DNA of 64,000 nucleotides from Polytrichum commune (taxonomy: Eukaryota > Streptophyta > Polytrichopsida > Polytrichales > Polytrichaceae): positions 13,642,001 through 13,706,000 of the forward strand of contig OX485803.1 of the NCBI GenBank assembly GCA_950295325.1, given 5' to 3'. Position numbers and translations under genes: made by a program. Under the pieces are notes generated by a model. The model searched no databases. It worked only from the letters and a program-made list of their open reading frames with translations, and had not been told where the DNA came from. Shown here in pieces: positions 1,316 through 63,163 of the stretch. Each line of letters starts with the position of its first letter. Within the stretch, counting starts at the first letter, position 1.

Positions 1316-1975
1316 CAGAGTTCGGGAAGTTTTTGAAGCCTTAGTGGCTAATTGCCGGTAGTTGCTACGAAGGGTCGGATTTTTTCCAATTTACATCGGC
1401 AAGAGCCGGTCTTTTGTAAAATCAATCGGCCAATTGCCTATATTTTCATATTTTCATTGGCCAATATCCGCTTAAATGGGATTCATATCGGCACTAATTG
1501 TTTAAAAAATGTATGAAAAGTTATTAGAAATCATTTCTTAGTACAAAATCTTGAATAAGTGAAAAGAAAGGCATGTTCAAAACTTTAAATTTGAAGAGTT
1601 AATATCCTTGGCATAAATTGAACCTAGCAATGCCTTCACCACTTGAAGGCCAAGGGTCCCCCAATTCTTCATAGAAGCAAATAGATTTGGTCATGGAAAG
1701 GTTGCATAATTCAAAAAGTTTAAGGTTTAGGTTACTTCCTCAAGTGCATCATCAGATGCCCTAGACAAATAGCGCTATGGATGCTTCCGATTGAAATCCA
1801 GTAACTCACAAGAAGAATCGACTACATTTCCGGGACATTTTCTGGTCCATCGACTAATTGCCAGAGGATTGAAATTACAGACGGATTGCCATCCGATGGT
1901 TGGAAATTTGGACCGGCCATGAGGGGAAATCCATCGGCTGATAATGAACTAGCCGTCGGTTTTCCCCGAACATAG
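1316..1975 (-). mobile_element. non-autonomous hAT element (MITE), 660 bp
   Basis: The element is flanked by a perfect 8-bp direct repeat, CCCTCAAC, at 1308-1315 and 1976-1983, the target-site duplication length of hAT transposons. Its left end reads CAGAGTTCGGGAAG and its right end, reverse-complemented, reads CTATGTTCGGGGAA, sharing the core GTTCGGG. Both subterminal zones are dense in CGG/CCG motifs (about 1355-1490 and 1825-1965), as expected of hAT transposase-binding repeats. There is no coding capacity. The left end closely matches the right end of the hAT element at 59270-63155 and the right end matches that element's left end, so this copy lies in the opposite orientation and is probably mobilised by that family's transposase. 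Confidence 0.82.
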
Positions 1976-25690: not shown

Positions 25691-26099
25691 CTACACTAAA
25701 TATGATATCTAGTGTTTGATTATATTTAATGTTGTTACCACCCTACCTTGCTCAACACTAATTCTCAATTCCTTGACAACTAATGTTAGACATAAATGTG
25801 TTGCTAACTTCCCTACTACCCACCTCCCTTCATGTGAAGCATGGATTTCACTGAACTTGTGATTCTAGGGATGGCGTCGCACCTTCATACTCGCTGATTT
25901 CTCATCTACCGAATTCGACGGCATTCATTTCAAATCCTTCCTGACACCAAAATCAAACACGTAACTTCCACATATCACCACAATTGATATTTAGCGTTTG
26001 AGTTTACAATTAGTGTTACTTACTGTCATAGGGTTATTGACATTTAGTGTATGCGTTCGTAGTACGTGTATCAAACACTAAACATCATATGTAAAGTAG
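25691..26099. mobile_element. TACACTAAAT-family MITE, 409 bp
   Basis: The left end, CTACACTAAATATGAT, starts at 25691. The right end is its imperfect reverse complement, ending GTAAAGTAG at 26099. Flanking octamers are TTTTGAAG (25683-25690) and TTTTCAAG (26100-26107), a 7/8 match that would fit an 8-bp target duplication. The interior resembles 2455-3105 (shared TGTTRYCACCCTACC and ACTTCCACATAT stretches) but is shorter and lacks the CT tract. Its right third forms the first unit of the adjacent tandem array. Confidence 0.75.
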
Positions 26100-27072
26100 T
26101 TTTCAAGGGCTAACTTGATCTCCAAATAGTCTTTACCATTAACATAGTCAACGGTATAGCTGTTTCACCCTCCTTCCTCGGGAGGTGTTTATGAACATTC
26201 GCATGTGTTGATATTTAGCGTTTGAGTTTACAATTAGTGTTACTTACTGTCATAGGGTTATTGACATTTAGTGTATGCGTTCGTAGTTCGTGTATCAAAC
26301 ACTAAACATCATATGTAAAGTAGTTTTCAAGGGCTAACTTGATCTCCAAATAGTCTTTACAATTAACATAGTCAACGGTTTCACCCTCCTTCCTCGGGAG
26401 GTGTTTATGAACATTCGCTTGTGTTGATATTTAGCGTTTGAGTTTACAATTAATGTTACTTACTGTCATAGGGTTATTGACATATAGTGTATGCGTTCGT
26501 AGTTCGTGTATCAAACACTAAACATCATATGTAAAGTAGTTTTCAAGAGCTAACTTGATCTCCAAATAGTCTTTACAATTAACGTAGTCAACGGTTTCAC
26601 CCTCCTTCCTCGGGAGGTGTTTATGAACATTCGCCTGTGTTGATATTTAGCGTTTGAGTTTACAATTAGTGTTGCTTACCGTCATAGGGTTATTGACATT
26701 TAGTGTATGCGTTCGTAGTTCGTGTATCAAACACTAAACATCATATGTAAAGTAGTTTTCAAGGGCTAACTTGATCTCCAAATAGTCTTTACGATTAACA
26801 TAGTCAACGGTTTCACCCTCCTTCCTCGGGAGGTGTTTATGAACATTCGCATGTGTTGATATTTAGCGTTTGAGTTTACAATTAGTGTTACTTACTGTCA
26901 TAGGGTTATTGACATATAGTGTATGCGTTCGTAGTACGTGTATCAAACACTAAACATCATATGTAAAGTAGTTTTCAAGGGCTAACTTGATCTCCAAATA
27001 GTCTTTACAATTAACATAGTCAACGGTTTCACCCTCCTTCCTCAGGAGGTGTTTATGAACATTCGCCTGTGT
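25984..27072 (+). repeat. five-copy 216-bp tandem array carrying a MITE end
   Basis: Units begin with TTGATATTTAGCGTTTGAG at 25984, 26208, 26424, 26640 and 26856. The first spacing is 224 bp because of a few extra bases near 26158; the rest are exactly 216 bp. Each unit comprises the right third of the neighbouring MITE (to AAAGTAG) plus about 100 bp of flank containing CTAACTTGATCTCCAAATAG and CCTTCCTCGGGAGG. Copies differ at only a few positions, implying recent amplification. It is not a CRISPR array: the repeat fills the whole period and there are no variable spacers. Confidence 0.93.
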
Positions 27073-59261: not shown

Positions 59262-59719
59262 CTTGTGTGCAATGAACGGGGAGTACCGAACTTTAGTTAC
59301 GAGCTAGCCGAAATTTTTTGAAGATTTCCGAATGAGTTTGCAATGATTCGGATGAGGTACCGACCTAAAATTAGAAAGGTCGGAAATTGACCGGTTGAAA
59401 TGAGAAAATATCGGCAATATAGCCGGTTGAGGCATCATATTTTAGGATATTTACCGAGCCAATTTTAAAATTTTAGGCAAGTAGCCGAAGGGATTAGGGA
59501 TAGGGCGCATACACCTCAAGCTTGCGTCCGACGCATACACCTCAAGCTTGCCAAACATGGAAGGTTTTGTAAGAAACTCCCTACCAAACTCATTTGAATT
59601 AAAGGATAACTCTATTACCCTAGTAAAAAAAAAATTCCCTATCCCTAATACTAGAGTCATAACTCATAAGGTTAAGATTCTAAGAACCATGAAGGCTAAG
59701 TAATTTAGGGAAGGTTCCA

Positions 59720-60506
59720 TTCACAAGGCCGATTAGGGTTTTGAGCCGCTCTAAGCATCCAAGGACACTCTGTCACGAGTATAAGGAGCTGGAGTCCTTT
59801 CTACAGAGTATCTCACTCGTCCATGGGGATTTCTCTCTGTGCCGAGTGCTCTCTCTACTGCTCTTCCGCTTCTGCTACATTCATCTTGATTTGCTATCTA
59901 GATTTGGGTGCGAAGAGGAGTTTCTGCTTGATGTGGGACAGTGGGTGCTGCTAGCCTGCGAGGAGGTCAGTTTCGGCGGAGCGCGCACAGATCGCTCACC
60001 TACCTGCTGCGTGCTGCTACCAGTTTGAACTTCGAAGGTCACTCCGTAATCGTCTACAGATCGCTCTTTAGCTTCCGGACTCGCCACAGGGTATGTCACT
60101 GATTCGATTTTGTGTTGAATATGTTCAGAGTTCAAAGTTCAAAGTTCACGAAAGTTGATATTTTGAGTCAAATCTGTTCAGAGTTCAGAGATCAGAGTCA
60201 TCGAGTTCATGAAAGTTTTGATTTTGAGTCAAATCTGAGTTCAAAGTTCAGAGTTCACGAAAGTTGATAGGGTGTGTCGAATCTGTTCAGAGTTCAGAGT
60301 TGATAATTTGAGTCGAATCTGAGTTCAAATATCAGAGTTCACGAAAGTTGATAGGGTGTGTCGAATCTGTTCAGAGTTCAGAGTTCAGAGTTCACGAAAG
60401 TTGATATTTTGAGTCGAATCTGATGTAGAATTTCATTATCGCCAACCTGATCAGAATGCAGAGTTCATGAAATTTTCTTACATGAAATGTGGGCTAGGAA
60501 TTAGGA
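59720..60506 (+). promoter_or_regulatory. hAT transposase 5' leader with probable intron
   Basis: About 59740-60090 is more GC-balanced than its surroundings and has no long frame joined to the transposase, so it may be an untranslated exon. CACAGG followed by GTATGT at 60091 is a good 5' splice site, and CTAG or TTAG at about 60494-60504 could be the 3' site just before the transposase ATG. This is inference from sequence only. Confidence 0.4.
60122..60425 (+). repeat. short tandem repeats inside the hAT leader intron
   Basis: About six imperfect units of 35-60 bp built from GTTCACGAAAGTTGATA, TTTTGAGTC(A/G)AATCTG and strings of GTTCAGA. They precede the transposase start by about 80 bp and might be regulatory or binding sites. 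Confidence 0.8.
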
Positions 60507-62721
60507 ATGGCAAAACGACAAAGATCCTTAAAGGAGCATTTTGTGACCACTCCTCGAAATATTGACATAGATGATTTAGCATCTGAAACATGTGCATTGG
60601 ATGATTTACCCTCTTCTCAACTTCCAAATGCACAAGGTATATGGAAAGACCAATGGTATAGCCAATTTGATTGGCTAGATTTTTCTCCCAATTTGGGAAG
60701 AGTGTGTTGTAAAATCTGCAAGGAGAAGGGTGGACGTTCGGTATATGCCAAGGAGGGATCCAAAAATCTAAAGGTAAGTGCATTTCATGATCATGCATGT
60801 TCTAGTGAACATAAAAAACTTTGTTGGGCTTTACAAAGTGGTGGTAAAGTGTTGGAGAAGGCGATCAAACAAGGGCAACGTGCATGTGATGAATCATTGT
60901 CATCATTGTTTCGTGCTGCCTATTTTATAGGTAAGCAATCCCTCCCTTATGCAAAATTTCCTTCTTTATGTTCATTGCTTGCTAGTGTAAAGGCTCCTAT
61001 CACTGCATCTTTGTATCATGATAAAAAATCATGTGCTGATTTAATTACATGTATGTCTAATGTCATAAAAAAAAATCATATGTAGGGTTCGAAATTCTCC
61101 TTTCTATGGTATCATGATTGATGAATCTACGGACATAAGTGTTACCAGTCATCTTGTTGTATTTGCTACAATTATAGAGGAAGGTGTGCCTTTGACTGTC
61201 TTTTTAGGTTTGTTAGAGATTGAGGGTGGAAAAAAAGATGCTAGTATTATTTTTGAATGTTTAGTCAATCATTTGAAAATTTGGGAACTTGATGTATGCA
61301 AGTGTGTGGCATTTGGTAGTGATGGTGCAAGCACCATGGTGGGATCTCATGGTGGAGTAGCAACAAGATTGAAAAACAACCTAAACCCATTCATTTTGTC
61401 TTGTCATTGTGTTGTTCATAGGACTAATCTAGCTTCACTTGATTCATCTAAAGCACCAGATTGCAAGGTAATATCCGATGAGGTTGACACGATTTTGAAT
61501 GCAATTGCTTCTTTCTTTAATATGTCATATAAACGTAAACATGCACTCACAACCTTGCAAACAATACTTTTTTATGCTAAAAAAACAATGAAACGGTATC
61601 ATAAGATACAATGGCTTAGTAGGTGGCAGGCTGTGACTACCTTATGTGATTCATTAGAATCCGTTTTGTCTTTTTTTCGTGGTGACAAAAAAAACCTTGG
61701 TCAAATGAAGTTTGTTTTAGCCAAGTTAAAACAATTTAAATACATCTATATTTTGTATTTTCTAACTGATATCTTACATTCCTTAGCATTGTTATCAAAG
61801 ATTTTTCAAAATAAATTTGTGGATGTCACAACTATTGGTAGTATTGTTATAACCGAAATAGCACAGATTATAATGTTGTTTATTGTTGAGCAAACTGATT
61901 TGAATGCTTCTACATTTAACGAAAACACTGGCTATCATGTTATTCCTGAATATGGCCCTCTTGGGGGTCATCTCCGAAAGCTTTCAAGTGAAATTCATGG
62001 AAAAATATATCATGGTTTTGAAATGGATCGGTCTAGATTAGGAGATGACCTTGAGGAAGTACTTAAATTCCAACATGCCTTTGCGGAAGCTGTTTGTGCA
62101 GGCTTGGATGCTAGATTTGTAGATAATGATCTTATTTCATGTTTTAAAATCTTAAATCCTACTAATATGCCTTCAAAGCAGATAGGCCTCCAAAATTGGG
62201 GGGTAGTTGAGTTGGAGAAATTACTAGCACACTATGGGCATGATCGCTCCCAAGAAGGTTCAAATTTTTCCCCCTTCATTGATGTGATGGCTTGCAAGCG
62301 TGAATTTCTAGCTTTCAAATTGCAAGCCACCACTGAATGGGGAGATAAGACTTGTAGAGATTTATGGGGCATGATCACATGGAATCATTCTTTGCAAACC
62401 CTATATCCTAATTTGCTTGTCCTTGCTGATTTGGCTAGAGTACAATGTGTATCGACATCCACTTGTGAAAGGGCGTTTAGTGTCCAAAATTTAATAAAAA
62501 CACGAGTGAGAAATAGACTTGGAAGTAAAAATTTAGAAGCTATGCTTAGAATTGCTTTAGAGGGACCAAATGAGAACATTGATAATATTATTGAAGAGGC
62601 AATTCCATTGTGGAAAAGTGGAACTAAATACCGGTTTTTATATGCTAATCCTTCATTTTATGTGTCTTCGGGAAGTGATGCATCTCGTTTAGTAAGTTCA
62701 ACTATGTTTTCTAATTCATAG
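60507..62721 (+). CDS. hAT transposase, one frameshift
   Basis: Transposase of the ZNF862/C17orf113-like branch of hAT. It starts at ATG 60507 in a good context. The first piece (60507-61085, 192 codons) carries a BED-like zinc finger, with CKIC and then HACSSEH, after WYSQFDWLDFSPNLG. The frame breaks in a run of nine A (61067-61075). One extra A would explain it, because the +1 frame continues without a stop into NSPFYGIMIDESTD and on through 61114-62721 (535 codons). That piece has the first catalytic Asp region (IDESTD), FGSDGAS, the family signature SCHCVVHRTNLA, and the C-terminal dimerisation block CERAFSVQNLIKTRVRNRLG starting at residue 451 of the piece. No other stop occurs. The frameshift may be a real lesion, an allele or a homopolymer sequencing error. 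Confidence 0.9.
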
Positions 62722-63163
62722 GATACGAATATCTAAGAGATGAATGTATTGTTGTACTAACTAGCCTCTTAATAATGTATGAACCCTTTTTGGATTTATA
62801 CATTTTTTCAAGGCTAAATCCTTGGCCCCAAGTTGGTGGGGGCTTGGCAAGGTTCAAATCCTTCCAAGGATACTTGGATTTTATATCAACACAAATATAC
62901 CCATTTAAAAGCATAATACCAATTTTTTTTTAATATTAAAAAAAACAAATCCGACATACAATACAAATCTTCGGAAATATACCGAATTGAAATTCACAAA
63001 ATCGGAAAATTACCGAATGAGAAAGTTAAATATCGGAATTTAACCGACAAAAAAAATTGGATTTAGGTAGCTTCCGATCAAAAAAATAAAAATCCGAATC
63101 TTTTCATAAAAGATCGGAAATCTACCGATTTTTTCAAAAAACTCCCCGGACTCTGCTTGTGTG

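Follow-up and report, generated by a model that had tools for sequence, protein, structure and literature searches.

A complete, probably inactive plant hAT element with phased, ordered end sites that are likely bound by the zinc fingers of its transposase

Introduction

Each end of a hAT transposon has to comprise hundreds of bases, and its two ends may not be alike. Among the sites at the ends of the maize element Ac, the weaker ones share a TCGG core. About 200 bp of each end of maize Ac/Ds are needed, and the transposase binds repeated CG-containing hexamers, AAACGG (PMC3260210). The element described here resembles Ac/Ds in being a plant hAT with 8-bp duplications, repeated CG-containing sites and deletion derivatives, whereas Ac/Ds has another repeat and a five-exon gene, with no spacing rule met in the available part of the account (PMC3260210).

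In Hermes, a hAT of the house fly, two zinc fingers cooperatively bind a 17-bp quasi-palindrome and the ends are asymmetric; Hermes with symmetrised ends is inactive, and mutations in the three outermost sites at one of its ends did not restore it (PMC10368747). Hermes, with its BED zinc fingers, is like our element in being a hAT with many short subterminal sites whose left and right arrangements differ; it differs in its motif, AAG(T/C), and in that only one further palindromic pair is described, and the word ‘helical’ does not occur in the text, with no statement on phasing met in the available part (PMC10368747). In the present element, unlike Hermes, palindromic pairs repeat every 31 bp or so, and several families have the layout in common. 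Herves, a mosquito hAT, likewise has a short subterminal motif to which its transposase binds asymmetrically at the two ends, but this motif is CG/AATTCAT and no phased array was met in the accessible part of the source (PMC3143072). In the open-access literature covered, which leaves out most subscription journals, we recognised no account of a code of spacing and orientation that is conserved from one hAT family to another.

Here we describe a complete plant hAT element, probably inactive, in which short sites at both ends lie in helical phase and in a fixed order; we consider it likely that the zinc fingers of the transposase bind these sites.

A complete hAT element and its family

The element lies in a 64-kb window (the whole stretch of DNA analysed), which also contains a GRAS gene (5.7e-116), indicating that the host is a land plant. 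Its boundaries are as follows.

59270 to 63155, plus strand: hAT element, 3886 bp, delimited by its target duplication, its termini and family copies that end alike
59262 to 59269: target-site duplication, left copy, CTTGTGTG, 8/8 identical to 63156-63163
63156 to 63163: target-site duplication, right copy, CTTGTGTG, 8/8 identical to the left copy
59270 to 59284, plus strand: left terminal repeat, CAATGAACGGGGAGT, matching the right terminus at 11/15 bases
63141 to 63155, minus strand: right terminal repeat, CAGAGTCCGGGGAGT as read on the minus strand

The 8-bp target-site duplication typical of the hAT superfamily is thus present without a mismatch, and the octamer occurs three times in the window, two of these being the flanking duplications. 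The termini are short, of CA type, and form the short terminal inverted repeats of a hAT. An earlier note, made from the letters of this DNA, had called the duplications perfect and the termini matching; the first holds as it stands, the second fairly, since 4 of the 15 bases differ. Searching the genome assembly (407.8 Mb, 64 contigs) gave at least 97 matches to the family (40 of 673 candidates scored), of which the best 30 were analysed. Among these, 14 independent copies had both ends in view, with duplications matching at 8/8 bases in 12 and at 7/8 in two. The same ends and duplications across 14 copies identify these ends as those of a mobile family. We agree with the earlier note that a complete hAT element of a land plant lies at 59270-63155. 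The insertion preference given for hAT elements in the available part of the source is nTnnnnAn (PMC3878927). In line with it, T2 or A7 was found at 17/28 positions of the 14 duplications (p 7e-4 against 0.30); the focal duplication has T2 and lacks A7.

The nearest copies among the matches listed differ from the focal element by 2.4-2.5% over the gene, and the focal copy's own branch in the tree is about 1.3%. The proposal that the element was recently inserted is thus moderately supported: we regard the insertion, whose duplication is still perfect, as of moderate age and not demonstrably very recent. The copies taken from the best 30 of the 97 matches included 10 internally deleted derivatives. 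Two copies (L002 and L003, C3, about 84 kb apart) are identical and share the target duplication ATTAGGAG, so that this pair is either a segmental duplication or an assembly duplicate.

A transposase gene in two overlapping frames

The gene region contains the following features, the intron being a suggestion from splice-like sequence.

60091 to 60506, plus strand: putative leader intron and tandem repeats 5' of the ATG
60107 to 60422: tandem repeats in the leader with 53/84-bp units, longer and rearranged in L002 and L004
60507 to 61085, plus strand: transposase frame 1 (zinc finger), open, counted from the ATG and ending just past the A run
61069 to 62721, plus strand: transposase frame 2 (catalytic and dimerisation parts), open, 550 aa
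61120 to 61122, plus strand: presumed catalytic D1 codon, by match to the motif IMIDES
61321 to 61323, plus strand: presumed catalytic D2 codon, by match to the motif GSDGA
62467 to 62469, plus strand: presumed catalytic E codon, by match to the motif ERAFS

The two frames overlap at a run of nine A (61067-61075) and neither has an internal stop, which bears out the previous observation that the transposase is broken only once, at this run. The gene, uninterrupted in an autonomous element, is therefore split here. Frame 1 contains the Pfam domain zf-C17orf113 (PF25431) at residues 57-106 (E 7.7e-12, 45.3 bits against a cut-off of 29.5), and frame 2 the dimerisation domain expected of a hAT transposase, Dimer_Tnp_hAT (PF05699; E 6.9e-6, 26.2 bits against 21.4). 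The C17orf113-type zinc finger agrees with membership of the ZNF862/C17orf113-like branch, which the earlier note had proposed; the other domain of that branch, DUF4371, stays below the Pfam cut-off both in the focal transposase (14.6 bits against 32.1) and in the intact relative L051 (28.7 against 32.1), and the placement is indirect. Of the catalytic D, D and E within an RNase H-like fold that mark the superfamily, the motifs are present, and a single-sequence fold prediction of frame 2 had a low mean pLDDT of 35.5. A search of solved structures gave 0 matches, and no relatives were confirmed among viral contigs. In the leader, a segment at 59527-59649 (element 258-380) is inverted in L002, L003 and L007 and is missing from the deleted derivatives.

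The run of nine A in other copies

61067 to 61075, plus strand: nine-A run where the frame is lost, pure A9 in 6/17 independent copies, total lengths 6-11

We compared the stretch between the same flanks in 17 independent copies (L001-L018, with L003 left out as identical to L002 with the same target duplication). Pure A9 is found in L001, L002, L006, L007, L009 and L010. Four more copies are out of frame at other lengths (L004 7, L005 10, L008 6, L014 10), which leave the same or the second wrong frame, and the run is in frame in the remaining seven (L011, L012, L013, L015-L018). None of the 17 copies is intact; all except the focal one have at least one in-frame stop.

The earlier note had raised the possibility that the extra A is erroneous or allelic. 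That it is private to this copy in either sense is ruled out by the occurrence of A9 in six independent copies, and the comparison gave the very outcome that the earlier note had named as speaking against its reading, namely five further A9 copies with one to four in-frame stops each. It is hence most improbable that the assembly introduced A9 by mistake into an autonomous element with no other damage. The focal copy does have the fewest lesions among the 17, with none seen besides A9, and homopolymers are the most frequent type of error in long-read assemblies; however, an identical A9 stands in five other independent copies, and lengths of 6, 7, 8, 10 and 11 in others show that the assembly resolves the run. 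An intron skipping the run was also considered and rejected: splice-like GTAAG at about 60773 and about 60930 falls within conserved coding sequence.

A second homopolymer at gene position 724-731 (window 61230-61237) has a one-base loss common to five copies (L004, L006, L009, L010 and L016) that span three subfamilies, which favours a general decay of homopolymers. The run might instead serve as a switch, with slippage of RNA polymerase or ribosome on A9 giving mostly a short zinc-finger protein (a repressor) and full transposase in small amounts, much as happens in those IS elements whose two frames overlap. Slippage has been treated in print for bacterial transposases; subfamilies A and B both have pure A9 in their consensus, as do the six copies, and the run sits between the DNA-binding and catalytic parts. 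The subfamily A stem branch moreover kept a dN/dS of 0.32, against 0.85 on terminal branches (p=0.012), but for single frames p was 0.20 and 0.033, the first frame alone giving the 0.20. We nevertheless think slippage quite unlikely: lengths of 6-11 occur, as expected for an unstable run in dead copies; in other families 12/14 readable junctions (not L041 and L058) keep the frame and have no long A run; subfamily C, with its run broken up, also keeps the frame; and the mix is accounted for equally well by a source with an in-frame run, A11 or A8, from which A was lost or to which A was added after insertion.

When the consensus of subfamily A is compared with that of subfamily B, dN/dS is 0.22 in the first frame and 0.29 in the second. 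These low values, together with that on the stem, indicate functional source genes, and purifying selection was acting on these genes as the family spread. They may have worked with A9 through slippage or had an in-frame run that drifted following insertion, and the common source of the two subfamilies may have had A9, A8 or A11. The focal copy, at present, most likely yields full transposase in small amounts or not at all; we take it to be probably inactive, where the earlier note had thought it active-capable should the extra A be an error or allele.

Two different phased arrays at the element ends

The sites at the two ends, for which we use the term rulers, are located as follows.

59286 to 59488, plus strand: left ruler, YCGR sites, CG offsets from the terminus 17, 39, 59, 79, 91, 111, 122, 142, 154, 185, 216
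62951 to 63128, minus strand: right ruler, CCGA/TCGG sites, CG offsets from the right terminus 28, 39, 59, 79, 109, 120, 140, 151, 171, 182, 202
59348 to 59363: palindromic dyad TCGG-N8-CCGA, the first inward-facing one in the left ruler, with further dyads starting at 59380 and 59411

Dense subterminal CCGA/TCGG motifs had been noticed before. Counts are 9 for the outermost 231 bp on the left and 11 for 62931-63155, compared to shuffle means of 2.2 and 3.2, but the largest counts among 2000 shuffles were 11 and 12, so that density by itself does not exceed every shuffle. The helical phasing, the orientation code, the difference between left and right and the sharing across families all go beyond the earlier note. 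The 9 CCGA/TCGG sites at the left end are in phase on the helix, with R=0.94 at 10.45 bp. So are the 11 sites at the right end, with R=0.96 at 10.20 bp, and in both cases 0/20000 random placements did as well. The usual steps between ruler sites are 11, 20 and 31 bp, with a period of 10.2-10.45 bp. Periods of 25-40 bp had weak support when tested directly, with a joint p of 0.30 for the left end and 0.01 for the right, the robust signal being the 10-bp phase.

Every site also has an orientation. From the left terminus inwards these are 17+ 39+ 59+ 79- 91+ 111- 122+ 142- 154+ 185+ 216+, and from the right terminus 28- 39+ 59- 79- 109- 120+ 140- 151+ 171- 182+ 202-. The two focal rulers match each other no better than chance (3/11, p=0.23). 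The CCGA/TCGG motifs are thus two different helically phased arrays, with a code of sites and orientations for each end.

As a control we scanned the rest of the window, where four stretches have at least six sites. One of these is not phased (R=0.37); the three that are phased, all within 1301-2016, belong to a second element.

1316 to 1975, minus strand: second hAT element, 660 bp, non-autonomous, with the duplication CCCTCAAC on both sides, both rulers and its left-type end at 1975

This miniature element (MITE) has at least 39 further places in the genome at 95-97% identity (40 of 1071 candidates scored). At its ends it is almost the same as a 5-kb element, F6, at L058 and L064, which makes the two one family; judging by these end sequences, F6 is likely the autonomous relative of the MITE.

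The layout recurs in other families of the genome

The rulers were compared in five families in all, from one genome: the focal one, F3 (L039), F4 (L051, with L061), F5 (L050, with L062) and F6 (L058, with L064), F6 and the MITE counting once. The ends of a further family, F2 (L037, L038), were looked for and not found, and F2 stands outside the comparison. The transposases of F3-F6 are 51-67% identical to the focal one. F3-F6 and the MITE have 8-bp duplications, CA-type termini and a left ruler as in the focal element, with CCGR, CCGG, CCTA or CCGA as the end motif. In F4, L051 combines an uninterrupted transposase frame of 755 aa with both termini and a perfect duplication, GTTTATAG.

The main offset tests score against the focal offsets alone, and their p values are nominal because the elements share descent. 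At the left end, offsets matched the focal ones within 1 bp at 8/11 in F3, at 7/7 in F4 and at 9/10 in the MITE (0/20000 in each case). In F5, CCG/CGG is almost absent, with one per end, and CCTA/TAGG stands at the ruler positions instead: at 9/10 left places within 2 bp (p=5e-5). The two 235-bp ends of F5 hold 10 and 6 CCTA+TAGG, compared to 11 in 2200 internal bases. Thus four other families repeat the left code with its distances unchanged.

Sharing is looser for the right code. F3 matched the focal right ruler at 8/8 offsets, whereas F4 (here from L053) did so at 2/5 within 1 bp (p 0.17, not significant) and the MITE at 2/6 (p 0.23, not significant), the MITE fitting the focal left offsets better (4/6). 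F5 matched at 4/6 within 2 bp (p=0.04; 0.0015 against shuffles). The ends of F6 were located from the duplication CTGTGGCC and the termini alone; against rulers enlarged after the fact they scored 11/13 left and 6/6 right, and at 2 bp the right end fits both rulers equally. Offsets 91 (right) and 174 and 205 (left) were added after seeing the MITE, F3, F4 and F5, which makes the F6 counts and the orientation counts that follow partly circular.

Across F3-F6, in cells unambiguous in both elements, orientation agrees with the focal element at 17/18 left and 12/12 right sites by hand count, with the F4 right end taken from L051 and the MITE left out as a repeat of F6. The one contrary orientation is that of F3 at left 91, and F4 is without left sites 39-79. 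Site 59 is plus at the left end in the focal element, F3 and F5, and minus at the right end in these three and F6. Aligned without gaps, left ends are 30-58% identical over offsets 15-225 (MITE and F6 83%) and 20-31% over 240-450, and this drop beyond 240 indicates that the shared layout stops where the ruler stops.

Preferential retention of ruler sites in deleted copies

In the 10 non-autonomous copies, CpGs are retained at 231/257 in the ruler zones against 80/177 elsewhere (nominal p 2e-24). Column identity in these copies is 96.6% in motif columns and 88.7% in the other columns of the ruler zones. The left zone stands at 93.5% identity compared to 80.4% in the adjoining leader; the right zone, at 87.0%, is below the coding part at 90.4%, which counts against constraint there.

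The arrays could simply be inherited terminal sequence in slow decay, with phase and spacing set by a founding 31-bp tandem duplication and with no present function. Sites do recur at about 31 bp, Tandem Repeats Finder reports a 31-bp unit at 62971-63038, and the families are related by descent. Yet the ends of F3 and F5, and those of the focal element and F5, are 30-32% identical ungapped (offsets 15-225) while the sites stay in place; F5 carries a different motif at the same places; and CpGs, expected to decay fastest, are preferentially retained in the ruler zones. We therefore regard mere inheritance as rather unlikely.

Proposed role of the arrays

The positions, phase and orientations of the sites, their recurrence in other families and their preferential retention in copies, all observed directly, read as a transposase-binding ruler that gives each end its identity, the binding itself being what we infer. 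About 11 short sites per end lie on one helical face, with positions and orientations in a fixed order. By analogy with Hermes and Ac, the N-terminal zinc fingers of the transposase probably bind these sites. Facing pairs, TCGG-N7/8-CCGA, about 31 bp apart, could take the finger pairs of successive dimers of a multimeric transposase, and outer sites that differ between the ends, such as site 59 with its plus orientation on the left and minus on the right, would allow the transposase to bring one left and one right end together.

More tentatively, and with the odds somewhat against it, the arrays might act as an address code, in which the position and orientation of zinc-finger sites on one helical face, unlike at left and right, stay fixed while the letters change with transposase specificity (CCGA to CCGG to CCTA). 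Geometry and not sequence would then define an end, and would forbid left-left and right-right pairing.

A layout that recurs down to about 50% transposase identity, with one switch of motif, provides natural variants for testing positions and orientations. With the ruler, end types can also be told apart and a MITE can be assigned to the autonomous element it is related to, as for the MITE of the window and F6.

Elsewhere in the window, 25984-27072 consists of a 216-bp tandem repeat in five copies that are 96% alike.
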